Assembly: GCA_949358305.1 (NCBI GenBank)
Contig: OX442320.1
Coordinates: forward strand, 1,180,501-1,244,500
Source of the DNA: Strigamia acuminata
Lineage: Eukaryota > Arthropoda > Chilopoda > Geophilomorpha > Linotaeniidae
Direction: 5' to 3'
Length of the DNA stretch: 64,000 nt
Positions within the stretch are counted from its first letter, which is position 1; each line of letters starts with the position of its first letter. Shown piece after piece: positions 2,047 to 63,544 of the stretch. The position numbers and the translations under genes were made by a program. The notes under the pieces were generated by a model. That model saw nothing but the letters and a program-made list of their open reading frames with translations. It was not told the DNA's origin and did no database searches.

Positions 2047-2939
2047 CACGACGACACAATGCACAATAATAATGAAGGATGCACGAAAAATCACTAAATT
2101 CGGAAATTATTCCGCACAAAAACACTTCACTCAAAACAAATCACACAGTGCACACTTGTCACCCACCAAAAATGAAGGCGAAAAAACAATTCCACCCGTG
2201 GGCAAACCGCTATAAGAGCGGCGAGCAAACCTTGACTGGTCGTTCCCCAACTCTTCCGTCCGACCACCTGGGGTCGCGGGATCGGTTGGGTGGCCGTGAA
2301 CAAGCCCAGACAAGAATACAGTGCCACGTGCCCGACTGGACGTAGGGTGGCACCGATACTAAGAGGGAAACCCGAACAAAAACTTAAATGTAACAGAGTT
2401 TCACGACAAAATGATAAATACACTTTTGCGTTGTTAAGATGGGCGGATTGCGGGATCCGATCGTCGCAATCGCTTCCGTCCAGCGTAGAACGTTGTTTAG
2501 ACGTTATCGGTGCGCGGAAATGGGGCTGACGCGCTACCGCTCGCACACGTCCGTGCAAAGCGGGGAAAAACGATCCAAAATCGTCGTCGCGCCCGTCCGC
2601 GCCTTCGTGTAGCACTCCGGGGTGCAAAACACGGCTTTTCCGGTCAAATATTGTCGTGTACGCAGACTTATGCGTACAGAGACACTCGAAATTGGTTTCC
2701 ACCGTCGACGGCGATGAAAATCCAAACAAAAATGGCCGCTGGTGAGGATTTGTTCTCCACCGGCGATCCACTGCTGATTTCCGATCGTTTTCGGTAATTT
2801 TCGCCTGATTCGGGGCGAAAATGCGTCGTATCGACGTTGATTCTCGTTGTTTCGGCGAGAATAATCGTCGTCTCGGCAAAAAACTGGCGTCTAGGCGTGT
2901 ATCGGCCCGAAAACACGTCGTTGCTACGTCGGCCGCACT
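2047..2939 (-). other. Leader of copia D, 3' part
   Basis: Untranslated leader between PBS and gag, corresponding to about 25974-26859 of element C in inverse orientation. It holds the leader motif shared with other copia elements here (GTCGTGAAACT followed by a T-rich run and GGTCCC, about 2365-2410). Open frames across this stretch and into the neighbouring F LTR are not genes. Confidence 0.8.
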
Positions 2940-3474
2940 TGTAGGTCGGTAGCAGAGGAAAACGACCAAAAAGCACTCGAGACTTCGAGTGTAACGTCGC
3001 AAAGGCGTCGCACTACTCGTACGAACGTGTGGGCGACGTCGGGAGCGAAAAAGAATGAAACGACCGCGCAAATGCGCTTATATGTCGTGCAATAAACCAG
3101 GCAGTGTTTAAAAACATAAAAATAAGTTTACTAAACCAAAATACTTACAAATGAAGCAATTACATAGTGAGATCATAAGGGCGAGAGCCAAGACGATGGT
3201 CGCCGCCATCTTGGAAGGTGATAAGAACACTAACGACACCTGGTGTCGTGAATTGGCGTTACGGAATTGAGAAATTCCGTAAAGCTTAACAAAAGCACTG
3301 GGAATAGCATGGTACTCCATGCAAAAACGTAACAAATGCATATAAATGCGGGAAAAGATAAACAATATCGAATATTGATAAAAATGGGAAAATACATCGA
3401 AATAAATGAAATGAGGAGTCGGAATGTGATTCTATATCACATCGATATGTATCATTTGGTTTCTTAGACCAACA
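2940..3474 (-). repeat. 3' LTR of copia F
   Basis: 535 bp, TGTTGG...CTACA on the minus strand. It pairs with 22345-22879 with one difference seen (T against G at the seventh plus-strand base). Near its inner end it carries CCTCTGCTACC, the complement of the element's own PBS. The polypurine tract AAAGGGGGAAT lies directly upstream (complement of 3475-3487). Confidence 0.95.
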
Positions 3475-3673
3475 ATTCCCCCTTTCGATGGAAATAGAAT
3501 CAGGGGAAAAATTACAGTTACTGGAATTACAGTAGGTAATTGAAAATAAATAATAGAGTCGAATCGCCGAGCCGGGTACTGTTATTGAAAACGCCACGTA
3601 GGCCCGAATATTCCCTCAGGAACTCGGTGATCCTCGAAGTCGGGTAAATAACGAAAGAATGTCACGATAAAGT
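3475..3673 (-). other. 3' untranslated region and polypurine tract of copia F
   Basis: About 200 bp between the gag-pol stop codon and the 3' LTR. The only recognisable signal is the polypurine tract at the LTR edge, used to prime plus-strand DNA. Confidence 0.7.
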
Positions 3674-4779
3674 CTAAAGTCGGAACACACGAGAGATCAA
3701 CGACTGAAGACGCTCAGAACTGAGCCACTTAGTGAATATGTCCGCGACGTTGTGCTCGCTGGACACTTTTCGGAGATCAAAACAGCCTGCCGTAAACCAT
3801 TCCCTGAGCCAGTGATACTTGACGCGGATATGCTTCGTCTTCGAGTTTTCCACGTCGTTGGATGTGAATTGTATGCTGGCTAAGGCATCGGAATAAATGA
3901 TCGGACGAGACAGGCGGTTCAAAATCGGGAATTCGGTGAAGATGTTATCGAGCCAAAAGGTTTCCTTCACGCATTCAACTAGGGCGAGGAATTCGGCTTC
4001 CATAGTTGAACACGCGACAGTCGATTGTTTTCGACACGACCAGCCAATTGGCACATTCCCGATATATGTTATGAAGCCGCCGAAACTTAAAGATGTCGCC
4101 AAATCGCTAGCCCACGATGCATCCGTATATGCCCATAACTGGCTTGAGGCGCAGTTCGAAAGTTCGATACGATAATCAATAGTATTCGCCACGTACTGGA
4201 GAACTTGAAGTAGGGCTCGGATGTGGGTGTTGTCGTAGCAAGTGTTAAATTGCGAAAGCGAGATGACGGAGAATAAGATGTCGGGGCGCGTTCGTGATGC
4301 CAGAAAGAGTAATGACCCGATAAGTGAGCGGTAGGGAAAGTCGATCAGGTCCTCTGTCGATGCTCGGACTAATGTTGTTCCGGGTGTTACTGGCACTTTA
4401 ACAAGTCGGTTAGTCGATGTCCCGTACTTCTGAACGAGTTTAGCGATGTATGCACGTTGAGAGATGTAAGTGCGTCCCAATTCGCGGATAAACTCGACGC
4501 CTAACAGTTTGGTAATTGGGCCGAGGTTGACTATATCGAATTTCGAGGTAATGAGTCGAATAATCCGGTCCAAAACACTGTCGGCTGCGTAGAAAAGTAC
4601 AATATCATCGACGTAGACTAGCATAACTGCACAATTGCCATAGATGTAAACGCAATTGCAAGCGGGCATTTTTCGGAATCCGAGGGCTCGAAGTGCTTCG
4701 TCCAGTTTCAAATACCACTGTCGGCCAGACTGGTGGAGTCCGTAAAGAGATTTCACGAGTAACCAAACGTTGTCAGGGT
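3674..4779 (-). CDS. Copia gag-pol of element F, 3' part (RT end and RNase H)
   Basis: Second half of F's polyprotein, separated from 17505-21403 by element G. It begins in the reverse transcriptase, has the copia signature SLYGLHQSGRQWY, then the RT active-site motif YVDD (near 4610) and RNase H with YTDAS, the acidic EAEF motif and YSDALASIQ, ending in a normal stop. This is the expected C-terminal order for Ty1/copia. The ATG near 4873 is inside the LTR of G and is not a real start. Without G the frame joins that of the 5' part directly. Confidence 0.92.
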
Positions 4780-4784
4780 GATTA

Positions 4785-5219
4785 TTTGATAAGTCCGTGG
4801 AGGCCAGGAAACATCGGAAAGGAGTTGAAACCAGCTTAAAATGTGCGGGGAGCTCGCACTTCGCGCCCGCCATGTTTTAATCACATGAAAGCATAAAAGC
4901 AACTGGGTTTGAGGCTAATTGGTCTCAAACCGTACAAAATATGACAATAGGACAAATCAATAGCAACAAGCATTGATTTGTTCTTTACAATATAAGTAAT
5001 TGTTAACCTAGGCATAATTAACCGATAAACAACACGGAAAACAACATTTATCGCTCTCTCAAGCAGACGACACAAGAAACATAGAATATGTGTGTTAACA
5101 CACAAGAGTAGCATTAATATGCGCTACACGGGTATCCAAAGGATGCCAACACACATATCTGCCATGCCTATCCAGAAATGCATGGGGAAACGGACAAAAT
5201 AATTAATCGCATACTAATA
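4785..5219 (-). repeat. 3' LTR of copia G
   Basis: 435 bp, identical by eye to 17065-17499. It contains the short GNRA-loop hairpin (complement of 5053-5064) also found in C, D and H LTRs. Its boundary is set by the GATTA duplication on the left and by comparison with the right copy. The TAAAT duplication made by H overlaps its last two plus-strand bases. Confidence 0.93.
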
Positions 5220-5222
5220 AAT

Positions 5223-5891
5223 TGTTAGTATTTGGAGCAGACATATGGTCACAGCCAGTTAATCTTGCGTGTTTCTATATTGTAAGCGGCTCATGTAGCG
5301 CGGTGATCGATTGTTGAGTCGTCTGCTCGAAAGAGCTTATCGTTTAGTCTGTTTTGGTGTGTTATCACTTGATAATACATGGCTTTATTCTATAATGATA
5401 CGCGTTTCCGGATTAGCGTATTGATGACATTGTCTTGTATCACATATCGAGTTGTGTAGTATTTCCCATCTCTGTATCTGTATAGCGTGTCTACGTGGGA
5501 ATGCACATAATCTATGTTAACAATAACATATGTCTAGTGGTGTATTGTAATTAATTAGTTGGATCTCAAATGGTATGATCTTATGTTATAAGAAGTGTAA
5601 TATAACATCGAATATTTATTACAATTATGTATAAGTTGTTTTAGTTATTTCTTAATGGTTATTGTATTATTTTCCAAGTTATAATGTAGACTTGTCTTGT
5701 GTATAACCATTTTATGTCACATGTCAACTGTAGTGACACATGTCACAATATTGAATGATTTGTTCTACCTGTATTGTTTTTGACACACTTGGCTTTGTTT
5801 TCTGCCAATAAAGATGGCGGCACGATTTGTGCACTTCACGCACAGCTAGAAAATTGCTTGGGACTCACCTTATTCCGATTATAGGCCAACA
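5223..5891 (+). repeat. 5' LTR of element H
   Basis: 669 bp, TGTTAGTATTTGG to AGGCCAACA, identical by eye to 10408-11076. GCTC-GAAA-GAGC at 5325-5336 can form a hairpin with a GNRA loop. A likely polyadenylation signal AATAAA lies in CCAATAAAGATGG near 5808. Confidence 0.96.
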
Positions 5892-5892
5892 G

Positions 5893-5904
5893 TGGTAGCA
5901 GAGG
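5893..5904 (+). other. Primer binding site of H (initiator tRNA-Met)
   Basis: TGGTAGCAGAGG, one base after the LTR, is complementary to the 3' end of metazoan initiator tRNA-Met. F, G, C and D have the same PBS. Confidence 0.9.
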
Positions 5905-7567
5905 CTTGCGTTTGGTGAGTTGCTGTCATCAATAAGCATTTTCTCGGCGAATTTTTCCACGTCGCGGACGGCCACGACGCACGGAAAACGGGGACGGGAC
6001 GACACGAGACGTTTCCCGCACGTCGCCGAGCAGAGAAGCCGACGATAGGAGCAGCCAAGCAGTATTTTCGCCAAAATTCGCCTGCGAATAGCGAATTCCA
6101 CGTGTTTGATGTTGTAAACACATTTTCGGACGTTTTGGAGCCCAATTGCGTTCGAAAATTGGTGGAAAATTTGACGGAAACCTCTTTTCTGGATGAAAAC
6201 GGCGAACCACTTTTTCGGAAATCCAAGATGGCGGCGCCCACGACTGTACGAGTCTGAGGCCGTGTTTGGACTGTTTTCAAGTCGACGAGTGGATCCCAGC
6301 GCTGGAAATAACAACGTGGGATCACATAAGGAGCCAAGGAAGTTTTTGGAACCGGTTTGGAGTTGAATCGGATTGTTCTTCGTCGGAAACGAAGCATTTT
6401 TCGGCGGCGACGAGTGCAAACATAGTTCGCCAACGTTTAGAGGCTTACCGCACGTATTAAATACGTGCCCACCGATTTGAAGGCGTTTAGCAAACGTATT
6501 TCGGTGGGAAGAGAAGTTTTTCGTGTCCGGGACACGACAAACGAACGGTTGGAACTGGTTATGGAGCGACGAGACACGCTGTGAACGAGCGGCGTCGCAT
6601 TCGACGATAAAGCGTCGAAAACCAGTGAATTTCGATTGGAAATCACGGGAATCAGTGCCTGGAAAGCAGGAAGGATTGCTAAGAGACGGTAGGAACACAA
6701 AATATAATTTATTTGTTGTATTTTTGCCGATTTTCCACCATGATGTGCGGTGCAGCCAGATCCAAGATGGCGCCGCCCATGCCAAGCTGGTGAAAAAGGA
6801 CGAGAATCGTTGCCAACGAGTATTTGGAGCATCTCCATCGTTGGATAACGTCGGGAAGACGTTCTACGGAACAGCGGCTAGTGTTTCGAGAGGTTTTTGG
6901 AATTTTTTTCGGCGAACATTTCGATTTTTGGAGCGATTTTTCGCACGCGACGTGCGAATCGAGATTTTGGAATCACGGATTGGCCCGTACAGGGTATCTG
7001 TGCATCGTTGGACCGGTTAAGTCTTGTACCAGGTGTACAAGTGAATTGCAACGGATTCCAGCGTTAGGAGCGACGTTTCAGCGACGTCTTCGCGGGATTT
7101 GCGACGCAAAAATCCCGCAAATTTCAACGACAACGTGCCAGCATTGTTTTGTTTATTTGGGATTGTCGTGAAACTCTGTTATAGTTATTTAAGGTTTTGT
7201 TTTGGGGTCCCTTTGTTTGTTCCTTGCCCTTTACTCGGTCGAGTAGCAAGGTCCTATTTCCTCACAGGCTATTTCTGGCCACCAAGTGTCCCGCGGGCCC
7301 AGGAGCACCGGTCGGAACTTGGGAAATACTGTGGTGGAGTTTGTCATCTCACTTAGTGAGATTAGCCCAAGGGAAGTTGTGCATTTTCTCCTTCATTTTG
7401 GTTGGGAAAAATGTTTTTGTGTATTTTCAAAGTGGAAAAGTGTTTCTAGTGAAAGTGCTACGGTTGAATTTGTGGAAATGTGTTTTGTGCCATCACTAAA
7501 TTTATTAGTGAGTGTGGTGTGGTTGTGTGGCTCAAGTTTTGTGCACACAGTGTTTTGTGCAACGAAA
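5905..7567 (+). other. Leader of element H
   Basis: Long untranslated leader without a convincing gene. It holds a motif at 7164-7215 (GTCGTGAAACT, T-rich run, GGGGTCCC) that is shared with the leaders of G (complement of 16251-16300), C (about 26499-26545), D and, more weakly, F. A conserved leader segment in autonomous and non-autonomous copies is what a packaging or dimerisation signal would look like; that role is inference. Confidence 0.65.
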
Positions 7568-10222
7568 ATGTCTGTAACAGACAATGGGAATGCCTGCAGC
7601 AAACAAACAATGGACAATACACACAAAGCTCAATTGAAGACGGAAACACACGAACAAAGTGTCTCTAACGGACAAACAGTGCGTAACGCACTTGATGAAC
7701 AATTGGAGAAGAAAATTGATTCTTTTGAGAAAAAATATTTGAATTTGGATTTGAATGCTGATTTAAATGTGGATAAAATTGCATTATTACTAACCCATTT
7801 AATTGATAAGAGCGAATTAACAGACAACATAGATACTGTGATAAAGGGCATGGCTAATTTAATCTTAGCAATTAGTAAAATGCGTGTGCAAGAAGAGAAA
7901 GCAAATGGGGTTAGTTATGGCAAAGTGCGGGGCACTAGCAGTTTAAATCAGAGCAATGAAATGGTTGATTCAAATAGAATGTCGGATGACTTGAATGATT
8001 TGAGCGTAATCTCAAATGGTGATGTAGGAAACATCAAATCCCAACATGGAAACGGGAATTTAGAGTTTTTGGACCAAGTTCAAATGAAAGCTAGCAATGG
8101 AAATAAGAAATTGAATTTCACCACAGTTAAAAGTGGTAAACCCCTCAATTGGAATAAGAAAAATGGGGAAAATAACCAATGTAGGATTGGTAACTTAGAA
8201 TTTTTGAACCGGGTTCGGAATAGAAAGAGAGAGGGGAACCCAAATAGGAGTGATCTTTTAATAGAGATTTCAGGGAAATCTAATACGGGTTTGAGTAACC
8301 AAAAGTCAAGTATGACAACAGGGATTAAATGGAATGGTCCCCTGAATTCTGGTATTAAAAACCAGAAAAAGAATTATAAAAATGTGACAAAGCAGAAAGG
8401 AGAGTGTAACAAGGACAGGGTCCTTCCATTCTCATTGTGGCATACCCGGATGGGGTATTCGAATGAAGAGAGTGTTTATGCCATGAATGGGTCACAAAGT
8501 GTGTTTGGTGTCCGATTAGAAGACACGGGGACCGCCCCTATAACAGGGGATTTTGCAAATACAAATATTTGCCCGACACAAAGAGATAACGGCAGGAAAG
8601 CTTTAGAAGCTGTGCATTTGAGTGTTTGGAAGGCCCCAACTAAGGAAAAATATCTCATTATAATAGATAATTGTTCTGAATACGCATGGTTTAGACCATT
8701 AAAGGAAAACAGCATTGTACTGGAATTTCAAGATTGGTTAAATGAAATTAAATGCTTTCCAGGAACTGTGAATAAAATTTATTTAGGCCCTGGGATGGAA
8801 TTTTCCACAGAAGAATTGACAGCGTGGGTAGAAGTAATGAAGAATTTCGGGATTACAATTGATAATTTAGATTCTGATAACCCAATGGCTGACTCCATCT
8901 CCGAGAGGGCTAATGCAGATATTGTAAATGGGGTGGAAAGTTTGATTGTAGAAAATAAATTCCCCAGTAATTTGTGGTTGGAGCTGGCCAACACAATGGT
9001 CTATTTAAGGAATAGAGCCCCCAGGATTAATTTAGACTGGAAAACCCCATACAACGTATTGTATGACCGATGTGTATCGGTACGGCATCTCAGATGCGTT
9101 GGGTCAAAAGTTAGAGTTTTCCACATTAATGATGGGAAGAGGTGTTCCTGGGTGGGCGCCTTAGTTGGGTATTCGACATTTAATAGAAAATACCGGGTCT
9201 GGGACCCATTGAGAGATAGGATTTTTCAAACGAATAATGTACAAGTAGATGAGTGGAGTTATTGGCACGAGGGGGAAGTTAAACCCTCTCTGGGAATTTC
9301 TAATGTGGGCCAAACTTCAGGTAGTGAAGGAATTGAAATTCCATCGACGGTTGTTGGAGTGCCAACATCTCCTCAGTTTGAAATGCTTTCCTTATGGCAA
9401 GTAGGATCTGAGAATCCCCCATTGTCATTAAGCAAAGAAAGGGAACACTTAGGAAGTGTTGAAAGTGTTAAAAACGAGGGGGAACATTTAGGAACATTTA
9501 CTTCAAGTGATGAAGAGTTTTGTGCGGGACTGGCTTGTGAACAGCAATCTTCCCCTTTGGTGAACACAGTGGAAGATGAAATTTCTCCATTAATTGAGAC
9601 AGAGGGGGAGTTTAAAAAGAAACCGGAAAAATTGGAACAAGAAGGGAAATTTAGTGATAGGGTAAATAATTTGCCACTAGGAATTCCTCCCGAGTTAACA
9701 CATGAGGAATCTGAGCCAATTGCAAACAAAAGTGAAGGATTAGAACAGTTTGCATTGGATTATGAGCCCAAGTCCGTTGAAGGGATTAGGCAGGATCCCA
9801 TGAAAGTTTGCGATATTTCTTCGACGTCACGGGAAGATGACATTTCCCCAACACCGGTAGAGACACTGATAGGTGTGGGTGAAGATAAAGTCTTTAGGAC
9901 AGAGGGGGAATGCGGAAAGACTAAAAGACGCAAGAAAAGGTGTAGGAAATCCAAGAATGTTGTTTTAATGAAAACAAAGGATGATGAATATCGTTTGGCG
10001 GTTAATGAACCGATATTGGATAATGAAACAACTAAAAATGTTACGTTGATGGAAGCGGATGACATGGAATGTGAATTGATGGCTGGTGAGCCGGATTGTA
10101 TTAGTTATGTCCTGACCGAAGGGGATGTGAAATTTGAAGAGCTAAGCGAACGGGACAAACAAACTATAATTGATAAGTTAGGATTCACGTGGGACAAAAA
10201 CTTCATTTACCCCAAATATTAG
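7568..10222 (+). CDS. Pseudo-integrase protein of element H
   Basis: Open frame of 884 codons from the ATG at 7568; it stays open upstream to 7286, but the leader comparison with C and G places the start near 7568. Residues 1-280 are Asn/Lys/Ser-rich with no capsid or zinc knuckle I can recognise. Residues about 290-570 align with the copia GAG-pre-integrase and integrase core: LWHTRMGY, IIIDNCSEY, ERANADIVNG, LRNRAP, VSVRHLRCVGS, YRVWDP. The second His of the zinc module is Tyr, the CxxC pair is lost, and the TDNGGEF motif reads LGPGMEF, so the second catalytic Asp is gone; the first Asp and the Glu remain. The acidic C-terminal third contains a basic cluster near residue 785 (KTKRRKKRCRKSK), a possible nuclear localisation signal. 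No RT follows. It is unlikely to be an active integrase. A dosage-control or DNA-tethering role would be inference. Confidence 0.88.
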   Translation: MSVTDNGNACSKQTMDNTHKAQLKTETHEQSVSNGQTVRNALDEQLEKKIDSFEKKYLNLDLNADLNVDKIALLLTHLIDKSELTDNIDTVIKGMANLILAISKMRVQEEKANGVSYGKVRGTSSLNQSNEMVDSNRMSDDLNDLSVISNGDVGNIKSQHGNGNLEFLDQVQMKASNGNKKLNFTTVKSGKPLNWNKKNGENNQCRIGNLEFLNRVRNRKREGNPNRSDLLIEISGKSNTGLSNQKSSMTTGIKWNGPLNSGIKNQKKNYKNVTKQKGECNKDRVLPFSLWHTRMGYSNEESVYAMNGSQSVFGVRLEDTGTAPITGDFANTNICPTQRDNGRKALEAVHLSVWKAPTKEKYLIIIDNCSEYAWFRPLKENSIVLEFQDWLNEIKCFPGTVNKIYLGPGMEFSTEELTAWVEVMKNFGITIDNLDSDNPMADSISERANADIVNGVESLIVENKFPSNLWLELANTMVYLRNRAPRINLDWKTPYNVLYDRCVSVRHLRCVGSKVRVFHINDGKRCSWVGALVGYSTFNRKYRVWDPLRDRIFQTNNVQVDEWSYWHEGEVKPSLGISNVGQTSGSEGIEIPSTVVGVPTSPQFEMLSLWQVGSENPPLSLSKEREHLGSVESVKNEGEHLGTFTSSDEEFCAGLACEQQSSPLVNTVEDEISPLIETEGEFKKKPEKLEQEGKFSDRVNNLPLGIPPELTHEESEPIANKSEGLEQFALDYEPKSVEGIRQDPMKVCDISSTSREDDISPTPVETLIGVGEDKVFRTEGECGKTKRRKKRCRKSKNVVLMKTKDDEYRLAVNEPILDNETTKNVTLMEADDMECELMAGEPDCISYVLTEGDVKFEELSERDKQTIIDKLGFTWDKNFIYPKY

Positions 10223-10407
10223 AGGGGGAATGAGATTGTACGTTAATTGAACTGGAGTCTTTAACATCAAGTACGTTTTGGTTAGGAGAGAACAACTTGT
10301 AACCCTAGATAAATGCATTTTCGGGGCGCATTTGAAATACTGCGCAGTGATGGGGTTATTGCGTATTCTTCTGTCCGGTTTAGACCATATGCTGCTCAGA
10401 GGGGGTA
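10223..10407 (+). other. 3' untranslated region and polypurine tract of H
   Basis: 185 bp between the stop codon and the 3' LTR. It ends with the purine run CAGAGGGGGTA, the expected plus-strand primer. Confidence 0.75.
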
Positions 10408-11076
10408 TGTTAGTATTTGGAGCAGACATATGGTCACAGCCAGTTAATCTTGCGTGTTTCTATATTGTAAGCGGCTCATGTAGCGCGGTGATCGATTGTT
10501 GAGTCGTCTGCTCGAAAGAGCTTATCGTTTAGTCTGTTTTGGTGTGTTATCACTTGATAATACATGGCTTTATTCTATAATGATACGCGTTTCCGGATTA
10601 GCGTATTGATGACATTGTCTTGTATCACATATCGAGTTGTGTAGTATTTCCCATCTCTGTATCTGTATAGCGTGTCTACGTGGGAATGCACATAATCTAT
10701 GTTAACAATAACATATGTCTAGTGGTGTATTGTAATTAATTAGTTGGATCTCAAATGGTATGATCTTATGTTATAAGAAGTGTAATATAACATCGAATAT
10801 TTATTACAATTATGTATAAGTTGTTTTAGTTATTTCTTAATGGTTATTGTATTATTTTCCAAGTTATAATGTAGACTTGTCTTGTGTATAACCATTTTAT
10901 GTCACATGTCAACTGTAGTGACACATGTCACAATATTGAATGATTTGTTCTACCTGTATTGTTTTTGACACACTTGGCTTTGTTTTCTGCCAATAAAGAT
11001 GGCGGCACGATTTGTGCACTTCACGCACAGCTAGAAAATTGCTTGGGACTCACCTTATTCCGATTATAGGCCAACA
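10408..11076 (+). repeat. 3' LTR of element H
   Basis: 669 bp, identical by eye to the 5' LTR at 5223-5891, followed directly by the target duplication TAAAT. The GNRA-loop hairpin lies at 10510-10521. Confidence 0.96.
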
Positions 11077-11095
11077 TAAATCCCCCTTCGATTAA
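11077..11095 (-). other. Polypurine tract of copia G
   Basis: CGAAGGGGGAT on the minus strand directly after the gag-pol stop. Without H it would abut the 3' LTR at 5219. Confidence 0.75.
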
Positions 11096-14000
11096 TCAAT
11101 TTGTCGCGACAAAAATGTGCTCGCACAACGCGTCCAATTTTGCGCGGGACAACCACTTTGTCATAATGTCCGCGACGTTGAGGGTCCCTGGGATGTGCCT
11201 GATTCGAAAAACACCTTTCTCGAACCAGTCGCGCAAGAAATGCAATTTCACGTCTATGTGTTTGTTTGCGCGATTTTCTATGCGGTTTTTCGCATATTGA
11301 ATCGCAGGCATCGAATCGGCATAAACACATGGTATTTCCCGGTCAAACCCGTCAATCATCACTTCCGCGTCAAATATGCGTTCTAACCAAATTATCTCCT
11401 TCACACCGTCCACAACCGCCAAGAATTCGCTTTCCATAATGGAAAGAGCGGTAATGGTCTGCTTATGGCAGTTCCAGGAGACGGGGACACCACCCAGATA
11501 GATAATGTGCCCGCCAAAACTTCGGCGCTTGTCTTGGTCCAGCGCGTAAGACGCATCTGTGTAAACAGTTAACTTGTCACTTTGACAGTTCCCAAGATTA
11601 ATGGAGAAATTCGGCGTATTAGCCAGGTAACGCAACACTTGAAGCAGCATGTTTACGTGTCGTGTCGAGTGAGTCTCGTTGTATTGAGACAATACAATTA
11701 CAGAAAACAAGATATCGGGTCTTGTGCGACTTGCGATGAAGAGCAAACTTCCGACAAGAGACCGATATGGAAAACTCGAATTAACACGTTCTCCCGTTTG
11801 GACTTTTTGGATCATAGTGCCGGGCGTGCCAGGCACTCTAACACGGTGAGATGGGTCAATACCGTATTGCTTGCAGAGCTTCGCAATATAGGTGCGTTGA
11901 TGAATGAGGATATTCCCCCCGTCCCTACAAAACTCAATCCCTAATAAAAGGGTGACGGGGCCCAAATTGACAATCTCAAAGGATTGTTGAATCCATTCTA
12001 AAACGCACTCTTCTGCCAACTCATCCCTCGAAAATAATACAATATCGTCGACGTAAAAGATGAGTATGGCGTCCGAACCCAAGCTATACACACAGTTAAG
12101 ACCCAAAACCGGTTCAAAACCTATTTCAATCAGCTGGTCGTGTAAGCGCTGGTACCACATACGACCAGACTGATGAAGCCCATAGAGAGATTTTCTCAAC
12201 TCCCAACATTTGTGTTGGTTTTCAGGTGTTCGATATCCCTTGGGGATGTTGATGTACTGCACCTCATCGAGGTCCCCATATAGATATGCGGCCTTGATGT
12301 CAAGGTGTAAGTCACGCCAGCTCCTTAATACTACAAGAGTACAAAAGAACATCATGACCAACACAAAGTTGACTACGGGGGAGAAGACCTCCGTAAAGTC
12401 AATGCCGGGCTTCTGCTTGAACCCTTGTGCAACAAGACGAGCACGATATCTGCTAATCGCACCCGTATGATCCCTTTTGAGTTTATAAATCCACTTTGAT
12501 CCTAGCAAGGTTTTATCCTTGACTTCACTTTTGTCAACCTCGACATACACCTCTCGTTCTTTAAAGATGTCGATTTCGTCCTCCATTGCCCTTTCCCAAT
12601 CAGGTTTCCCAACACCTGTCACAGCCTCTTCGTAGGTGTCAGGCTCTACAGAGCAGCAACCAGCAAAACCGACATTGATGTCTTTGAAGTTGAACAATTC
12701 CGAGATATACTCGTATCCCTCGTCCCGACACCACCGCACAACTTCAACACGACTTCGAATTCTGTCATGCTTTGGTGAAATGTAATAAACATCAACCTGT
12801 CCAGCCGTTGCGCCTGATTTTCGCACAGACTGCCGTCTTTGCCATTTAGACATGTCCAACGGCAATAACCCACCAGCTGGAACTGTGCGTTCCCCTGTAT
12901 CCTTTCCTTTTCGTGGGGGATTACGACGCACAGGTGTAGGTGACGTTCGGGGGGATAGTTGAGGACTCGCATCAGGATCCTCAATTTCATCCTCGTCATC
13001 GGGGTAAATACTGAAGAAATTCTCATCGTCCCCCTTTGCCCCACCAATTTCATCAACATTTGCATCTCTAAGGACATCTTGCACTATATCCTCGATGACA
13101 TCTTCCACGACACCAGCGTTCTCAACTTGTTCAGGTGCCTTTTCGGGCGCAGGTTCCTGAATTGGGGGTGGGGGAACCACTGCTTCCGGTAGGGGGCCAC
13201 CATGAACGCTGTCGTCGTCTGACGAGGAGCCATCCTCGTTTGAAGAATCAGACACGCTGTCGAAATATGAGGGGCTCGAGGGAGGAATTTTCAAATTTTC
13301 ATACCAAAAATTCTGTTCCAATATTTTGACATGTTTCGAGAGGAACACTTGGTTCCGTTTCGGGTCCCAAATTCGATACCCACGGGTGGAAGCCGCATAA
13401 CCAATTAATGCCCCTGCCCACGCCCTTTCTTTCAATTTCCCACCCCTTGTCTGGGAAGGAATGTGGACATATGTCAATGCCCCAATGCATTTGACATGAC
13501 GCAGGGACAATTTCTTATTGTAAAACACATTGTAAGGTGTTTTCCCTCCTAATCCCGTGTGTGGGAATCGATTTTTCAAATAAACGACAGAAACTGCAAG
13601 TTCTGCCCACAAAGTTGGGGAAAAATTATTCTCAAAAAGAAAAGCCCGGATTCCATTAAGAATGGTGCGGTTCGCTCGCTCAGCAACCGAATTCATCTCG
13701 GGGCTGTATGTATTCGTCCTCATACATTTCAACCCAATGCTGTCAGTATAAGCATTCCATTGTTTCGATATGAATTCCCCACCATTGTCAGTTTTAATGG
13801 CTTTGACCTTTTTAGAAGTAAGCCGTTCAATTTCCGTCAACCACTTCTTGAAATGACCCAAAACTTCATCTTTCGTTTTCATGATGATAATCCACATCAG
13901 TCGGGAGAAATCATCAACCATAATTAGGTAATAAAATGCCCCACCAATGCTCTTAACCGGTGAGGGCCCCCAAACATCTAAGTGAACAATTTCCAAAATC

Positions 14001-15907
14001 CCTTTAGTGGAGATATTAATAATGGGAGGAAAGCTTGCACGTGTGCTTTTCGCCCTCGAACAAGCATCGCAAGCCGACAATTCATTGTTGGAAAGTTTCA
14101 GCCCAAATACTTCATCGGATTTCTCCAACAATGCAATCCCTTTCGCATTAAGGTGCCCAAAACGTGAATGCCAAACATCCATCGTTTGAGGTTTGTCAGG
14201 CTTAATAAGAGCCTTATTCCCACCATTATCTTTCAAACTGTTTTGCACACCTTGTTTGGAAATCTTCGCAGTCTTTGATTTATTCCCATTGTTGACTACC
14301 AGGCCAGTGTGTGTGTTATTCAAAACGTTCAATTTCTGTTTCGGACTCGCATTATTCGCAACGATCGCTGGCGCATTGTTCGCAGCAGTCACTTGCCCCA
14401 TATTCGCAATTGCAGGTTTCCCTGTCTTACTCAAATTTTGGGTTAATGCAGTCTTAAAATCTAAATGAGTTAGTAATGAATTAACAATTTCTTCACCCTT
14501 TAAAGGTGGACTAGGCTCCACTGCCGCATTCTGTTGCGCAGGTAATGCAGCAGCGTTAACAATGTGTGCAGTATTCACTTGACAATTGACTTTATACATT
14601 CTATCACTCGTACGTGTCGCAGTGATAGAAGGCGCATCAATACTGTCATGAAAAATGGACATTTTTCCATTCTTTACAAATGTGGTAGCCCCAGCTTCAT
14701 CTGCACGACCTAATGAAATCAGATTCTTTCTGAAGTTTGGAGCGTAGAAGACATTTTTCAATTGTAATTCCCGTTTCTTTTGTCCATAAAAAGATATTAA
14801 TGTCACAGTCCCGATGCCCTCGATTTTCGACTTTCCTTCGCCCTGCTGGACGCTGTAACCAGTTAATGGTTTGAAGTCGGAGAACCAGGACTTGTTGAAC
14901 GAGAAATGGTCTGTCGCTCCTGTATCGACGTACCATTGCGAATCAAAGTTCGCATGTGACACCAGCGATACGACAGGAGATTGCTCTTGATTCGAAATCG
15001 CTGCGGAGAAGTAAGAGATGGGGACGTCATCAAAAATATTCATTTGGGTGACGGCGGCCTTTTGCCGGCCTTTTCCACGTGATTTTCCTCGTGGATTGCC
15101 CCTAAACTGTCCTGTTGATCCGCCTCTTCCAGTAAGTTGCTGTTTAGGTGGAGAAGGGCAGTCGCGGGAAAAATGGCCTGTCCCACCGCAGGTAAAACAC
15201 ACACGTGGGGAACTGGGCGCGGTTCCGCCGCGTCCACGTTGACCACTGCCTCCGCCAAAGAAGGCTCCAGTGTTTTCCAACGGTGTCGGGTTGGGCACTC
15301 CAAATTCGTCCCCCTTCTCGTAAAGGCGATTATACTCGCCTAAAAGTCTTTCTTTCACGGCAGCGGCCGTAAATTCCGGGTCGGGCCAGTGATACACTGT
15401 CTGTTTGACTGGCTCGAATTGGGGCGGCAAAAGGTCCAAGTACTGGAAAGCGTGGAACTCATCCGAGACCACAATCTTCACGTCGGCGAGTTGTGTAACT
15501 TTCCGGTCGACACGGGAAGTAAAGACGACCATCTCTTCATCCTCCCGTAGACGCATATCGAGGAATTCCCGCCGGAGTCGGGCTTTGCGTGCGCGCGTGG
15601 TCGGCTGGTAAGCCGCTTTCAGCGCTTCCCACACACCCTTCGCGGTTGGGTGGGCCACAGCCACGACTTGCTGTGGTTCGTTGCAAGCCAGACAAATGGT
15701 GGAGCGGGCTTTTTCTTCGCCCTTTTCGTAGTCACGAATTTCCTTTGCCGGCGATCCAGCAGGCGGTTCCTTGATTTTGCCGGTCACATGTCCCCAAACA
15801 CTGTATGATTGAAGCAAAAGCTGGATCTGCATGCTCCAGGTGGGATAATTGGAGCCGTCCAGTTTGCGTACATCCTTGTAATCATCATGTCGGTCCCAAT
15901 TCGACAT
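11096..15907 (-). CDS. Complete copia gag-pol polyprotein of element G
   Basis: Intact minus-strand frame of 1603 codons. The ATG at 15905-15907 is preferred over an in-frame ATG ten codons upstream because it aligns with the start in element C (both MS..HDDYKD). Order: Gag with a zinc knuckle near residue 240 (CFTCGGTGHFSRDC); protease DTGA near 330; GAG-pre-integrase WHSRFGHL...CDAC near 580; integrase core with Asp in HLDVWGP, TDNGGEF and AERANRT (640-745); an acidic, proline-rich linker; reverse transcriptase with FYVDD near 1285; RNase H with YTDAS near 1450 and SEFLAVVDG. All catalytic motifs are present, and length and order are standard for Ty1/copia. It is one of two complete copia coding regions in the window and the likeliest source of enzymes for H. 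Confidence 0.96.
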   Translation of the reverse strand: MSNWDRHDDYKDVRKLDGSNYPTWSMQIQLLLQSYSVWGHVTGKIKEPPAGSPAKEIRDYEKGEEKARSTICLACNEPQQVVAVAHPTAKGVWEALKAAYQPTTRARKARLRREFLDMRLREDEEMVVFTSRVDRKVTQLADVKIVVSDEFHAFQYLDLLPPQFEPVKQTVYHWPDPEFTAAAVKERLLGEYNRLYEKGDEFGVPNPTPLENTGAFFGGGSGQRGRGGTAPSSPRVCFTCGGTGHFSRDCPSPPKQQLTGRGGSTGQFRGNPRGKSRGKGRQKAAVTQMNIFDDVPISYFSAAISNQEQSPVVSLVSHANFDSQWYVDTGATDHFSFNKSWFSDFKPLTGYSVQQGEGKSKIEGIGTVTLISFYGQKKRELQLKNVFYAPNFRKNLISLGRADEAGATTFVKNGKMSIFHDSIDAPSITATRTSDRMYKVNCQVNTAHIVNAAALPAQQNAAVEPSPPLKGEEIVNSLLTHLDFKTALTQNLSKTGKPAIANMGQVTAANNAPAIVANNASPKQKLNVLNNTHTGLVVNNGNKSKTAKISKQGVQNSLKDNGGNKALIKPDKPQTMDVWHSRFGHLNAKGIALLEKSDEVFGLKLSNNELSACDACSRAKSTRASFPPIINISTKGILEIVHLDVWGPSPVKSIGGAFYYLIMVDDFSRLMWIIIMKTKDEVLGHFKKWLTEIERLTSKKVKAIKTDNGGEFISKQWNAYTDSIGLKCMRTNTYSPEMNSVAERANRTILNGIRAFLFENNFSPTLWAELAVSVVYLKNRFPHTGLGGKTPYNVFYNKKLSLRHVKCIGALTYVHIPSQTRGGKLKERAWAGALIGYAASTRGYRIWDPKRNQVFLSKHVKILEQNFWYENLKIPPSSPSYFDSVSDSSNEDGSSSDDDSVHGGPLPEAVVPPPPIQEPAPEKAPEQVENAGVVEDVIEDIVQDVLRDANVDEIGGAKGDDENFFSIYPDDEDEIEDPDASPQLSPRTSPTPVRRNPPRKGKDTGERTVPAGGLLPLDMSKWQRRQSVRKSGATAGQVDVYYISPKHDRIRSRVEVVRWCRDEGYEYISELFNFKDINVGFAGCCSVEPDTYEEAVTGVGKPDWERAMEDEIDIFKEREVYVEVDKSEVKDKTLLGSKWIYKLKRDHTGAISRYRARLVAQGFKQKPGIDFTEVFSPVVNFVLVMMFFCTLVVLRSWRDLHLDIKAAYLYGDLDEVQYINIPKGYRTPENQHKCWELRKSLYGLHQSGRMWYQRLHDQLIEIGFEPVLGLNCVYSLGSDAILIFYVDDIVLFSRDELAEECVLEWIQQSFEIVNLGPVTLLLGIEFCRDGGNILIHQRTYIAKLCKQYGIDPSHRVRVPGTPGTMIQKVQTGERVNSSFPYRSLVGSLLFIASRTRPDILFSVIVLSQYNETHSTRHVNMLLQVLRYLANTPNFSINLGNCQSDKLTVYTDASYALDQDKRRSFGGHIIYLGGVPVSWNCHKQTITALSIMESEFLAVVDGVKEIIWLERIFDAEVMIDGFDREIPCVYADSMPAIQYAKNRIENRANKHIDVKLHFLRDWFEKGVFRIRHIPGTLNVADIMTKWLSRAKLDALCEHIFVATN

Positions 15908-17052
15908 GGTGAAGAATTTGGTGAAAAATCGATGCACAAATCACAAAATTCACAAATTTCGGCGAAAAACACTCGAAAAATTCACCAATTTGATGAAAAC
16001 ACACACTAATATTCACAATTCCGGTGAATATGCCGTGCAGAGAAGCGAAAACACCCCCAAAAATTGAAGGCGAAACAATCACAAACTTCCCTTTGGGCAC
16101 CTCAATAAGTGAGGTGAAAAACCCGAATCTGGTCGCCCTACTAGCTTCCGACCGACCCACCTGGGGGCCGCGGGACGACTAGTTGGCCACGGACAAGCCC
16201 AGACCGGAATGAGACTGCACGTAGGCGACTGCCTAAAGGGTGCAGAATAAACAAAAGGACCCCAAAACAAAAACCTTAAGAATTAACAGAGTTTCACGAA
16301 AATAGCAACTAAAATACACTTTTCAGATGTGAAGTTGGCCAATTACGGGATCCTTGCGTCGTAATTGGTTCCCACGTTGCAGTAAACGTCGGCTTCACGT
16401 TGTCTTCGCACGGAACTGGGCTGACGTGCAGACCGCGTACACACTTCCGTGTATCGGCCAAAATCGATGTTGCGTACGTCCACGCCTTCGTACCCGCTTT
16501 CCTGGATGCGAAGCACGGAAATAACCGCCTGCACACACGCTTATCGTGTGCAGGACTTCTCGGTGATCGCCGGATTAAATTCGCGAGTTGAATCTCGTCG
16601 TTCTTGACGAAAAATCCAACGAAAATGGCTGCCGGTGCAACAATCGTCGATTCGCGACGATTTCTTCGCAAAATGACGGTTTCCAGACGTTCCCACGCTG
16701 GAAAGACACCAAATGCGGCGGCTAATCGACGTATTCGTTCGTCGAAACGTTGGGCGTGCGTGTGTCGTTCCGTACACACTCGTAGACACGCTAACTTCGC
16801 AAACAAAAATGGCGCCGCCCGAGAAAAACTCGGTTATATCGGCGAAAAATAAACGAAATGCAATGTTCCTTACACCGTTTTGCTCCAAATTCACTGTAGA
16901 ATTGTCCGCACACGTCGTCACGGCTGTCCTTCGCGAAAAATTCCGGTTTTCGGCGATACGTCTCGGCGACGATCTGCGACGAACTTCCAACGTTCGTTTT
17001 CGCCCGAAAAACCTCACGAACTCGTCAATAACCTGTTGGCCCGATCGTGAGA
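15908..17052 (-). other. Leader of copia G
   Basis: 1.1-kb untranslated leader between PBS and gag. It contains the shared leader motif (complement of 16251-16300) and a CCGCGGNCCCAGG-like block near 16160, also found in H and in altered form in C. No convincing coding capacity. Confidence 0.7.
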
Positions 17053-17064
17053 CCTCTGCTACCA
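17053..17064 (-). other. Primer binding site of G (initiator tRNA-Met)
   Basis: TGGTAGCAGAGG on the minus strand, adjoining the inner end of the 5' LTR. Confidence 0.9.
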
Positions 17065-17499
17065 TTTGATAAGTCCGTGGAGGCCAGGAAACATCGGAAA
17101 GGAGTTGAAACCAGCTTAAAATGTGCGGGGAGCTCGCACTTCGCGCCCGCCATGTTTTAATCACATGAAAGCATAAAAGCAACTGGGTTTGAGGCTAATT
17201 GGTCTCAAACCGTACAAAATATGACAATAGGACAAATCAATAGCAACAAGCATTGATTTGTTCTTTACAATATAAGTAATTGTTAACCTAGGCATAATTA
17301 ACCGATAAACAACACGGAAAACAACATTTATCGCTCTCTCAAGCAGACGACACAAGAAACATAGAATATGTGTGTTAACACACAAGAGTAGCATTAATAT
17401 GCGCTACACGGGTATCCAAAGGATGCCAACACACATATCTGCCATGCCTATCCAGAAATGCATGGGGAAACGGACAAAATAATTAATCGCATACTAATA
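17065..17499 (-). repeat. 5' LTR of copia G
   Basis: 435 bp, identical by eye to 4785-5219. The hairpin GCTT-GAGA-GAGC is the complement of 17333-17344. Confidence 0.94.
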
Positions 17500-17504
17500 G
17501 ATTA

Positions 17505-20500
17505 CAGGTGGCACCTGCCGGGATGCGCATATAGACCTTGTGCTCGAGGTCCCCGTACAGGTATGCACATTTGACGTCGAGGTGTGCATCTTTCCATCCT
17601 CGTAGCACTACCAAAAGGCAAAAGAATAGACGAATGAGGACGAAGTTCACTACTGGGCTGAAGACCTCGTCGTAATCGATTCCGAAAGTTTGGCGAAAGC
17701 CTTGGGCGACAAGTCGAGCACGATATCGAGTAATCTTGCCGGTCGCGTCTGATTTGAGTTTAAAAATCCATTTACAACCCAAGATTGTCGTATCGGGCGG
17801 TTTCGGCACTTCGACATAGATTTCCCGCTCTTTAAAAGTTCCTAACTCTTCATCAATGGCTTCACGCCATTTTGGAGCGTCGTCGAATTTGGGAATTTCC
17901 GCATACGATGACGGTTCGGTGCGACAGAGGTGAGCGGCATGTCGAGCTGGAGGAATCAACGGTAGCGTATGCTCCATGTTGCCGAAAAAGAATAACTCGG
18001 GGTCGTAAGGGAGATTGTTCATGGCACAGAATTCTTCGACGTCTCTACGAGATCGAAGTCGGAGGCCGGGTTCCGGGAAATAATAGACGTCGATGTCTAT
18101 CGAACCTGGCTGCTGGTCCTTTCGTAGGTGTTCTTCGCGAACCCATCTGCGAAACACTGTGTTCCCGCCGACATAACGCCAATAGAATGATGTCTTGCCG
18201 GCAGAAGGAGCTGCAACATGTGTTGCGCCAGGAGGCAATGGAGACATTTGCCCCTGATCAAAGATTGGCATTGTGTGCTGCAGAATGTTCGGACCAGCTT
18301 TCTTTCGTAACGTGATGAAACGATTTGGTGATCTCGGTGGTGAAAGGCCGGGAGAACTGGCATTGGACGTTTCCGGTGACACGTGTGCAGACTGATTCGG
18401 TCGCAATTCTTCCGCGTCCGGTTGAACCGCAAATTCCTCGATCTGCTCGGCGTCATCGTCGGTGTCCTGCCCTTCAGCTATCTGTTCGTGTTCCTCATTA
18501 GTAATCGGATGCGACACGGAATGACGAGCTGGAGTTGGCAATGTCGATGCACAAAGTTCTAACAATTGTCGTTCCGGCGTTGATGGGGGTGGAATGTGGA
18601 CAATCGGTATCGGTGGCGTCTTTGATTTGGAGGCCGACTTGGATACGGATTTTTCTTCGGATATCGAATGCTCATCATCTGACGCTGGTTTGATCGACCA
18701 GTCCGCATATTGGACGGTGTCGTTGAATGACACTCTTTGTTGTTCATTGTTGGGTTCATAGAAGGATTCGTTGTTGCCATTTGGTACGCTTCGTAGGGAT
18801 TTGCGATACGATTGATGTTCGTCTATGCGGACATGTGCAGACTCCGTGACCTTGTTATCAATGGGATTCCAAATTCTATAGCCACGAGTTGCAACCGCGT
18901 ACCCAACGAGATATCCTTCCCATGCGCGTGGATCAAGCTTTTTACGGCCCGGCGCTGTGTAGTGGACCCAACATTTGGATCCGATCTTTCGTAAGTGTCG
19001 GAGAGATAACGCTCGCTCACGCCAAAGTACATAGGGGACTTGATTCTTCAAACGTGAGTGAGGGCTTCTGTTCTTGATATAAGCGAAAGTCACTGCAAGC
19101 TCTGCCCATAGACCGGCCGGAAGTTTGGTCTCTTCATGAATCGCGCGGATATTGTCCGCCATCGTCCGGTTAATGCGTTCGGCCGTTCCATTCATCTGTG
19201 GGCTCGATGGGTTCGTTCGCTGCCCTTGGATTCCTTTGTCTTTCAAATAGCGCTCGAATTCATTTGACATGAATTCCCCGCCACGGTCTGTGCGAATGGC
19301 CTTGATCGTTGTATTCGCAACCCGTTCGACTCTGGCGGCAAAGTCTTTAAAACATGCGAAGACTTGGGACTTCTGCGCCAATGGGGTGATCCAAGTATAT
19401 CGTGTAGCGTCATCAATGATCGTTAGAACAAAACGAGCTCCACCGAAAGATGTTGCAGGAGCCGGCCCCCACACGTCCATATGCAGGAGGTCGAGTGCTT
19501 TAGTAGTACTCGGGTGAAGGTCCGGTTTGTGTGAAATCTTGATTGATTTTGCAAGGCGACAGTCGTTGCAAGCGAGTTCTTGTTTTACTTCTCCCGGTTC
19601 CATTCCGTATACTTGTTCGTTGTTTGCCAACAGGCGCATTGCATTTGTGTGCAAATGCCCTAATCTGCTATGCCATAGGCCCGTAGCATCCTTTACGTTT
19701 GCAGGGTTAGCGATTGCCTTCTTTGGTGACTTGGAAGGATTGCTCGGAGGAAGAGGTATGGCAGGAGGAATATTAGGTAATGGCGTGGTCGGAATGGATT
19801 GGAGAACGTTGGAATAGGAATGGATAGGAGGATCTGGTTGGATAGGCGTGGATTGGGGAACAGGCAGAGACTGGGTCGGATTGGAAATTTGATTCTGAAT
19901 TTGCTTCGGAATCGGCGGCATTTCTATTCGAAAATCCGTGTTGCCTCCTTGTCTCGATTTCCCCTTTTTCGGTTTCGGAATGTTCTCAAAATCCACTTCT
20001 GTGGTGACATAAGTCAGCGCCGGCGTTTGCTGAACGGGTGTCGGAATTATCGTTGACACTGGGGTCGAAATCGCCGCAGACACAGAAGGAGTCGAACATA
20101 AACCGTCCACATAATACAATCCTGCCTTCTCCTTTGCTCGTAGAATAGAGCTCCGAATGTCCGATTGATAGATGTTAACTTCACCGTTGTAGAAATGTAT
20201 GTGATGACGTGTTTTGTCGATTTTGGAAACCGAAATCAAATTGGCCTCGAAATTCGGTGCAAAAAGTACATTCGTCAGATTCACAATACAATTGCAGTCA
20301 TCTATCCTCGTGAGCAGTCGGACATTTCCTTTTCCCGTCACCTTGGACTTGCCTTGTCCGAGCTCGATGTCGAAAGGCACGATGTCCACAAAATCCGTAA
20401 ACCAAGCTCGAACATATGAAACGTGGTCCGTCGCGCCACAGTCGACAATCCATTCGTTGGATTGCATGAAATGAGCAACTGGGCGCGCCGGGGCTTGTGG

Positions 20501-21403
20501 GGCACTGGCGAAGAATGTCCCTTCTCGTGTCGGACGAGAACAGCCTCGCGGACGCGTATCGTCGGGCTTGGGCGCGGAGTTTTTGTTGCGCTTCTTGCTC
20601 TTGCTTCGAGAGCGTTGGAAAGAAGCCGATGCCGGGGGTTGATTGTGATCCTCCCGTCGTGGATGGGGACACTTGTTCGCGTAGTGGCCCATCTCATTAC
20701 AGTTGAAACATTTAATTTCCGATAACGGTCGACGAGGACGGGAATTCTTCCGGGATTGTTGGCCTTTTACGGACGAATGCACAGAAGATGAGTGTACATT
20801 ATGCAATCCCATCGGTTTTAACCGTAAATATTCGGAAATCAATTGTTCGGCAACTTTAGTCGGCGTAAAGTCTTGATCAGGCCAGTGATATATCGCGAAC
20901 GTTGCTTGAGCGTATTCGGGCGGTAGTCGGTTGAGGTACTGGTATGCATGGTGATCATCTGTCGTAACCTCTTTGATGTCGGCTAATTGACGGACAAAAT
21001 GATCCACTCGATTGATGAAATCCTGCATTTCCTCATTGGGTTCGAGATGCAAAGTCAAGAACTCCGACCGTAATGCTGCCCGTCGCGCCCGCGAACTAGG
21101 CGCGTACGCTTTTGCCAGGACGTCCCATGCCTGTTTGGGAGTGTCACAATTGTCCAGGGCTGAACGTTTCGGTTCGCTGACATACATGTAGATGTGTCCG
21201 AGAGCTTTGTCCTTTTTAACCATGTAACGTTCTTTCTCTTTGTCCGTTAAAGTTAGGAGATGGTCGGCCTCCTTCTCCTCCGTTACATGCCTCCAAAGGC
21301 CCTCGGATTTCAAAAGCATCCGCATCGCCCTCTGCCAGGGCTCATAATTCCCGACAGAGAGGATGGGAATTCTGCTGACCGTCGTTTCCGTTGTCTTTTG
21401 CAT
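17505..21403 (-). CDS. Copia gag-pol of element F, 5' part (Gag to RT start)
   Basis: Minus-strand frame of about 1300 codons. The start is taken at the ATG giving MQKTTETTV; an ATG 11 codons upstream is possible. Order: Gag; zinc knuckle CFNCNEMGHYANKC near residue 233; protease with DCGA near 318, where most copia elements have DSGA or DTGA; GAG-pre-integrase WHSRLGHL...CNDC near 574; integrase core HMDVWGP, TDRGGEF and AERINRT (640-745); a long charged, proline-rich linker; and the start of the RT (WIFKLKSD, VFSPVVNFVLIRLF, YLYGDLEH). Element G cuts it in the RT, so the last few codons of the open frame come from G's LTR. It is a distinct copia family from C/D and G, with diverged sequence throughout. 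Confidence 0.94.
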
Positions 21404-22323
21404 CGTTTCGAAGATTCGGCACACCACGCAAAGCACACGGACTCAGAGAAATGGTATAACGGCGATCGAAGCACTTCACTAAGGCACAAAGAAGTGTGGA
21501 CGAATGTTTGTTCACACAAAATCGTTGCACTATTCACTAAATCACCTCCCACGTGGTTCAAAGCGGATATCACCAGATGGGGAGCCAATGCTAAAATTGG
21601 CTGAGAACCTAAAGCAAGTGTCCCCCTAGCTTCCTTTATAGCCACCTGGGGCTGCGGGAGTGCTAGGTGGCGCAGGGCTCAGCCTTGCTTTAGAATACAA
21701 ACACCGCTTGGACAGACTTGTCCGTAGGGCAGTGCCGATGCTAAAGGATCCCTTCCAAAATACCCACTTAAAACTAACAATATAATAAACGACAGGAAGG
21801 AGAAATAGATGAATCCCCCGTGGAAGGTCACACGGGCTCGCGGCAAAGCACGAGACAGGTTTTCTCGAAAAACCTGCTAGAAAAGCGCAATTCGGCTTCG
21901 AAAAACCGAATTCATCTCGATTTAACGAGGCTCTTCGTGAAAAATACACAAATCGTCGTAATAATTCGAAAATCGGCGATACTACATGCACTCCGGGGTG
22001 CATGAAGCGAGAGTCGTCTCGTTTCTCGATGGAGAACGTCTCATCGACGTTGTCGAAACGGAAAATCGTCGAAAATCTGAAAAATACAAAAATTCGCCTC
22101 GAAATTTGCGAGACCGCACAATTTCGGGCGAAATTAGCTGGAGAATCACGTGAGGCGTGGCGCAGGTCGCTTGTGAACGTTGGTAGGACGTTGCCGACGT
22201 TCAAATCACGGGAATCCAGCTTGAAAATGGTGAAAAACCTGAAAATATAAATTCGCCGCAAAATTCGCGAAATTCGCGTAATTTTCGGCGATAATTAGTA
22301 GCAAATGAAGCGTGCAGAGGATT
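21404..22323 (-). other. Leader of copia F
   Basis: Leader of about 0.9 kb between PBS and gag. It keeps a weak version of the shared leader motif (complement of about 21750-21800). Small open frames here are not supported as genes. Confidence 0.65.
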
Positions 22324-22342: not shown

Positions 22343-22344
22343 AT

Positions 22345-63542: not shown

Positions 63543-63544
63543 CT

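Follow-up and report, generated by a model that had tools for sequence, protein, structure and literature searches.

A conserved integrase without its two catalytic Asp residues in a family of non-autonomous Ty1/copia retrotransposons of Strigamia acuminata

What keeps a long reading frame open in a retrotransposon when the recognisable part of its only protein is an integrase that has lost its active site? The question is raised by H, a long terminal repeat (LTR) retrotransposon in a stretch of 64,000 nucleotides of Strigamia acuminata (contig OX442320.1, positions 1,180,501 to 1,244,500 of the forward strand), referred to here as the window, whose numbering we use throughout. In cis, H has everything expected of a Ty1/copia LTR element, namely TG..CA ends, a primer binding site, a polypurine tract and a short target duplication; its LTRs, 669 bp each, are identical, the whole element measures 5854 bp, and the primer binding site is presumably the complement of the 3' end of tRNA-iMet. 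A first-pass annotation of the window had described the identical LTRs, the perfect target duplication and both priming sites, and coordinates and sequence bear all of them out. In trans, H has none of the gag, protease, active integrase, reverse transcriptase (RT) and RNase H of an autonomous copia element. Our reading, which we hold as somewhat probable, is that H is one of an old lineage of Ty1/copia LTR retrotransposons that are satellites and have a conserved non-catalytic integrase as their own protein.

We consider first the integrase itself. Neither the D,D,E triad nor the HHCC zinc site of an active integrase is complete in H, and the CxxC pair is absent. That LGPGMEF stands in place of TDNGGEF, that the second zinc His is Tyr and that CxxC is gone had been recognised before and is seen again in the alignment; that the first catalytic Asp is also lost had been missed. 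Among the 24 copies with an open core, Ser stands at the first Asp position in all 24; at the second there is Gly in 23 and Ser in one, with flanking Leu and Pro in every copy, and the second zinc His is invariably Tyr. The surviving catalytic Glu is Lys in three of the 24, so that the replacement residues are more constant than the one catalytic residue that remains. Of the 279 core columns, 85 are invariant in these copies, and a wider alignment of 27 rows is concordant wherever a row covers the site. With all three positions replaced in 24/24 copies, the loss goes back to the ancestor and the replacements have become fixed; to judge from the sequences, the integrase of this family is dead and has been so for long.

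Second, this dead integrase is under selection. Pairwise ratios of nonsynonymous to synonymous change (dN/dS) were taken for up to 120 pairs of 16 sequences, comprising 14 complete frames together with L013 and L027; the near-duplicate L050 and ten relatives whose frames are partial were set aside. The medians are 0.47 for the whole open reading frame (ORF), 0.29 for the integrase, 0.25 for the SH3-like domain and 0.45 for the tail, at a median pairwise dS in the family of 0.49. A codon model of 292 core codons in the same 16 sequences gives an omega of 0.356 with a log likelihood (lnL) of -6263.2, as against -6383.6 for the best of five runs at omega=1; with 24 sequences, that is, the 16 plus eight partial-frame relatives (L016, L020 and L050 left out) and thus including partly broken copies, omega is 0.405 and lnL -7556.2 versus -7673.9 at omega=1. 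The choice of open stretches biases omega slightly downward, which the broken copies offset in part. The pseudo-integrase core is under purifying selection, and neutrality is rejected by about 118-120 lnL units. In neutral simulations a frame of 914 codons stayed open in 12% of runs at 0.02 substitutions per site and in 0 of 300 at 0.1, where it gathered 9 stops on average. Selection has preserved a catalytically dead protein, which therefore probably has a job other than cutting and joining DNA. The first-pass suggestion that the frame is kept by selection for a non-enzymatic role is thus strongly supported by the family, through omega, the fixed replacements and the simulation. It had offered dN/dS near 1 with frequent stops as the outcome that would speak against it: the core stands at 0.36-0.41, and stops do occur, in the best matches of nine of 51 family loci.

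Third, H is not alone. Copies and relatives were sought in a genome assembly of 237.5 Mb in 157 contigs, which carries four copies of H at four sites. Three are complete and identical over 5854 bp, and their 5-bp target duplications differ (AGAAT on C69, TAAAT in the window, CATTC on C1), which makes them separate and very recent insertions; in the fourth, on C8, 5' LTR and interior are identical too, and the 3' LTR is interrupted. The genome also holds diverged relatives, with 14 complete family frames of 859-1121 codons. Family scoring covered 51 loci of 2529 first-look candidates; in 33 of them the main match is free of stops and the frame runs open for 830 codons or more. These 33 include several near-identical copies and one locus, on C5, whose second match contains stops. 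Several locus identifiers denote the same copy (for example L013/L025, L017/L026, L049/L053), one of each being counted, and some counted copies are close kin (L017/L027, L015/L039). Four sites together with diverged relatives mean that H is not a one-off deletion. The proteins of L051, L052, L053 and L054 are 50-56% identical to that of H, and their LTR pairs are 99.8-100% identical, from which it follows that several branches of the clade moved recently; more widely, five other family members have LTR pairs with 99.7-100% identity over 349-478 bp, and in L052 the identity is 100% over 388 bp. Outside the host genome, no related protein was found among 7982 candidates scored.

Two local arrangements were also seen among these relatives. 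At C7:350918-368474, at least three copies of the L054 type lie about 5.7 kb apart on one strand, like a tandem array sharing LTRs. In L052, the primer site and nearly all of the leader are deleted although the 388-bp LTR pair is identical. An origin of L052 from a spliced RNA was considered and rejected: its 5' LTR (1-387) is joined about 85 nt before the ATG at a 4-nt microhomology without GT-AG, and the junction is accordingly read as a deletion.

The remainder of pol and the whole of gag are missing across the family as far as it was examined. The gag, protease and RT/RNase H parts of three autonomous relatives (G and C, both in the window, and L055, an element on C3) gave no match in H, nor in L051, L052, L053, L054 or L013 (tblastn, E 0.01); Pfam and tblastn found neither a gag domain nor a zinc knuckle in the H protein, and a Pfam scan of H returned solely the SH3-like retroviral domain above cut-off. 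The lack of zinc knuckle, protease, RT and RNase H noted at first sight is thereby confirmed. It had also been envisaged that other copies might be autonomous with a normal pol; this did not come true in the seven elements examined whole (H and six relatives), in which pol beyond the integrase amounts to a single 17-residue remnant of the pol end in L019 (E 0.005). This remnant fits an ancestry by deletion.

The ORF had been taken to begin at 7568, giving 884 codons, a position at which only three of 17 family sequences (H, L028 and L031) have Met. The start MCFVPS, at an ATG 90 bp upstream, is common to 16 of the 17, and eight of the 17 have an in-frame stop no more than five codons upstream of it; the ATG being conserved in relatives, the ORF is one of 914 codons. 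N-terminal hydrophobicity is kept in 14 of the 14 complete frames (19-residue Kyte-Doolittle maxima of 1.44-2.35). Within the first codons lies a palindrome of 19 nt with a 7-bp stem, and the median dS of the first 30 codons is 0.24 versus 0.49 overall; low dS and palindrome together suggest an overlapping RNA or DNA signal. The N-terminal region that follows the hydrophobic segment carries a net positive charge, and an LLTHL motif in it resembles, by eye, the spacer between protease and integrase of G and C. C-terminal of the SH3-like domain come an acidic spacer, a Lys/Arg-rich stretch that is present across the family and a short tail. A further, MBD-like tail that aligns with G and C is found in L031, L041, L052, L053 and L054 and is absent from H and other members; Pfam MBD gave no score in the four relatives scanned.

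Over about 300-380 residues of the integrase region H is 31-33% identical to G and C, and this identity, together with the SH3_retrovirus domain, marks it as a homologue of copia pol. In an integrase tree of 23 rows, the 13 pseudo-integrases form one group with support 100/100 on a long stem of 1.25 changes per column; their sister is G plus C, at a support of 89/75 that is under the usual mark, and L055 comes next. The tree took 13 of the 16 sequences, as the motif pattern missed L019, L028 and L046. On this evidence G and C are probably the closest kin of the pseudo-integrase. A structure model of the H integrase region, made with four window sequences, has a mean pLDDT of 56.5, and its predicted strands and helices follow one another as in an RNase H-like core and an SH3-like barrel. 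The best 50 of 1041 Foldseek matches are all retroviral integrases (best E 9.7e-8, TM-scores 0.28-0.49), with the integrase-RNA filaments 9rmx and 9rmu among the matches. A PDB sequence search with H gave three matches, all at E >0.5; the G integrase matches chain 7z0h_W, which we take to be Ty1 integrase, at E 3.3e-8. With G as protein query, 12 proteins outside the genome were retrieved, among them the metagenome protein P0001 with an MBD domain.

The autonomous copia elements G and C (window 11099-15937, minus strand, and 26842-31683, plus strand) themselves have, between their integrase and RT, an MBD domain recognised by Pfam, and the MBD score of L055 is just under the Pfam cut-off. Chromoviruses have chromodomain integrases, and the arrangement is alike in that G, C and some H relatives also have a chromatin-reader-like domain after the integrase; it differs in that the domain is MBD-like and not a chromodomain, the elements are copia and not gypsy, and the tail is missing from H itself. 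No description of an MBD domain in a copia pol was found in open-access titles or the opening parts of abstracts.

Next comes the question of which element H depends on. G and C had been proposed as the likely helpers on the strength of shared features: the primer site is indeed common to all three, and the leader likeness holds for G and comes down to 50 bp at 78% for C. By LTR, G and C were rejected as helpers, since blastn found no match of the H LTR to the LTRs of G, C or F (a further copia element of the window). In their place stands the lineage on C3. H and L055 differ by 13 mismatches in 863 bp that span most of the LTR, the primer site and 349 bp of leader, and L055 has a gag frame of 361 residues, a pol of 1290 residues with integrase, RT and RNase H in which D, D and E are all present, and LTRs of 539 bp that are 99.8% identical. 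On either side, the start of the H LTR (1-166) and the leader from about 994 are H-family sequence. The U5-leader part of the segment is found again, at 76-85%, in 26 further places, and in 15 of these a copia RT follows on the same strand at a distance of 4.7-5.8 kb (the RT search scored 96 of 3128 candidates); the segment is absent, short matches aside, from the 5' ends of six H relatives (L013, L016, L019, L051, L053 and L054). Since it lies in RT-bearing places and not in the six relatives, it most likely passed from an autonomous lineage to H; capture from the L055 lineage, as the trace of a helper, is thus the most likely source of the 863 bp. Two template switches in a particle holding both RNAs would be the likeliest route, gene conversion in DNA being a possible one. 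The LTRs of L051 and L052 agree at 99.7% over 387 bp even though the integrase cores of the two differ, which may be taken as a second sign of exchange. The 5' ends of L051-L054 led to pseudo-integrase elements and unassigned places, with no recognised autonomous partner in 40 of the 153-240 candidates for each.

These observations can be combined in a proposed course of events. An ancestor related to G and C would have lost gag-protease and RT-RNase H and kept a piece of pol from the protease-integrase spacer through the integrase, with the MBD-like tail retained in some families. Both catalytic Asps and the zinc site of the integrase would have gone ahead of the radiation of the family, with purifying selection on the protein ever since, as is seen for the core. 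Gag, RT and active integrase would be supplied in trans by autonomous copia elements, because H has none of them, and the C3 lineage would have left its 863-bp trace by template switching between co-packaged RNAs. The protein itself may be a nucleic-acid-binding escort that brings H RNA into helper particles or cDNA into the nucleus, for which the basic N-terminal region, the integrase/SH3 fold and the lysine-rich tail would be the working parts. Selection must favour the encoding RNA or its close kin, and this fits a partner that binds RNA from its own transcript. We put forward RNA or particle escort, by analogy, as the likeliest of the roles considered, though a tentative assignment that is rather doubtful as yet.

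Several points weigh against this account. First of all, outside the core the constraint is only mildly low, with a pairwise dN/dS of about 0.6 in the N-terminal region and the spacer. Second, beside the stops already mentioned, other copies have shortened frames; dead copies are present in this family as in any transposon family. Third, gag and pol of L055 lie in different, overlapping frames, for which frameshifting or a broken copy is a possible cause, and a helper trace was found for H only among the families searched. Finally, the escort role draws on analogy and charge, the structure model is weak in its confidence, its depth of four sequences and its TM-scores, and the zinc region is degenerate; in retroviral integrases the zinc domain helps multimerisation.

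Among other roles for the protein, the one that fares best is a chromatin or nuclear tether that delivers or targets cDNA with the MBD-like tail and the Lys/Arg stretch at work. The tail in five relatives, the MBD domains of G and C and of the C3 element (there below cut-off) and the family-wide Lys/Arg stretch speak for it, whereas the absence of the tail from H and other members, and the silence of Pfam MBD in the relatives scanned, make it unlikely. A regulator that enters the integrase complexes of the helper and holds down its copy number in a dominant-negative manner would explain why the integrase fold is kept without catalysis; H, however, needs active helper integrase, so that damping would cost H itself and the trait would be hard to sustain, an argument that leaves this role quite improbable. 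That selection acts on RNA or DNA signals within the ORF and not on the protein finds some footing in the low dS and the palindrome (exact in 14 of 17 sequences) at the ORF start, where it may hold locally; in the core, on the other hand, synonymous change is frequent and amino-acid change rare, with pairwise omega of 0.25-0.29 in the integrase and SH3 segments, and this codon-level constraint makes it a very poor account of the frame. That H is an ordinary decaying deletion derivative, its ORF an unselected leftover of pol without stops yet, would be in keeping with the four H copies, which are too young to show decay, and with the stops of some relatives. It is nonetheless highly improbable: the omega tests refute it for the family as a whole, the replaced active-site residues are invariant, and the median dS of the family exceeds the 0.1 substitutions per site at which no neutral frame stayed open.

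The features of H are collected in Table 1. Around it, the window holds a three-deep copia nest at 2936-22879, H in G in F. H is inserted between the ORF and the 3' LTR of G, whose LTRs (17064-17503 and 4784-5223) are 99.8% identical, and G splits the copia element F, whose LTRs (2936-3474 and 22341-22879) are 99.6% identical; with 100% for H, insertion order and ages agree. Elsewhere in the window, another direct repeat pair (43640-44096 and 63544-64000, 457 bp, 99.8%, 20 kb apart) is cut by the window end, and short tandem arrays lie at 52041-52495 and 59466-59930.

Table 1. Features of element H and their positions in the window
Feature	Position	Strand	Basis or remark
Complete non-autonomous LTR retrotransposon H, nested in element G	5223..11076	+	sequence comparison
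Target-site duplication TAAAT, left	5218..5222	.	
Target-site duplication TAAAT, right	11077..11081	.	
5' LTR of H	5223..5891	+	
3' LTR of H, identical to 5' LTR	10408..11076	+	
Primer binding site TGGTAGCAGAGG	5893..5904	+	after 5' LTR
Polypurine tract AGAGGGGG	10398..10405	+	before 3' LTR
Segment 98.5% identical to gag-pol element L055 on C3 (element positions 156-1018)	5378..6240	+	
Leader block about 70% identical to G leader, 266 columns	7152..7406	+	
ORF from conserved start, 914 codons, pseudo-integrase protein	7478..10222	+	family alignment
Hydrophobic N-terminal segment, 28 residues	7478..7561	+	
Palindrome TCACTAAATTTATTAGTGA in ORF start	7493..7511	+	exact in 14/17 family sequences
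Two copies of basic motif, type LEFLNRVRNRKREG	8060..8248	+	2 in H, 1-3 in relatives
Degenerate zinc region, integrase core and SH3-like domain	8438..9274	+	
Ser codon at first catalytic Asp position	8621..8623	+	VHLDVW to VHLSVW
Gly codon at second catalytic Asp position	8786..8788	+	alignment
Glu codon at catalytic Glu position, kept	8903..8905	+	alignment
SH3_retrovirus domain (PF25597), residues 530-596	9065..9265	+	Pfam, E 6e-9
Lys/Arg-rich stretch KTKRRKKRCRKSKN, putatively like a nuclear localisation signal	9917..9958	+	family alignment

How, then, does H stand beside the non-autonomous elements already described? Some are known that have no ORF, and others that have only gag. TRIM elements are short and without an ORF, and LARD elements are long and without coding capacity, both with a primer site and a polypurine tract; H, at 5854 bp and with 914 codons, is hence not a TRIM, and with an ORF that is under purifying selection in its family it is not a LARD. 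Elements of the BARE-2 type are non-autonomous and have their LTR, primer site and leader in common with a partner, lacking gag and keeping pol. H resembles them in being copia-type and in sharing cis sequence with a gag-pol element, here the 863 bp in common with L055, and is unlike them in lacking gag, protease, RT and RNase H, its one ORF being a dead integrase. TR-GAG elements have gag as the single ORF of a non-autonomous LTR element, and transposition was reported in Arabidopsis (PMC8704663); H likewise has a single ORF, which is derived from integrase and includes no gag. HIV-1 integrase is reported to bind viral RNA, which it anchors within the capsid (PMC13102720); the likeness lies in an integrase serving as an RNA-binding structural module, a role proposed for H. 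HIV-1 integrase, on the other hand, is an active enzyme as well, whereas in H catalysis is gone and there is no capsid protein. A search of the open-access literature, to which most subscription papers do not belong, brought up no account of a lineage with a dead integrase as its hallmark. To our knowledge, no selected lineage with a dead integrase as its only protein has been known.

Whether H stands for a whole class of satellite retroelements, defined by an integrase turned non-enzymatic protein that selection has maintained across many families, and taking LTR and leader sequence from helpers, is in our judgement evenly balanced. If the reading is true, the family would be a natural separation-of-function integrase, in which catalysis is gone and everything else is selected, and the roles of integrase other than integration, such as RNA anchoring, nuclear entry and particle assembly, would become directly testable. 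It would further mean that a satellite retroelement may retain a protein that benefits the element itself though its enzymes come from others, and H would be to retroelements what a satellite virus that supplies a protein of its own to the particle of another is to viruses.

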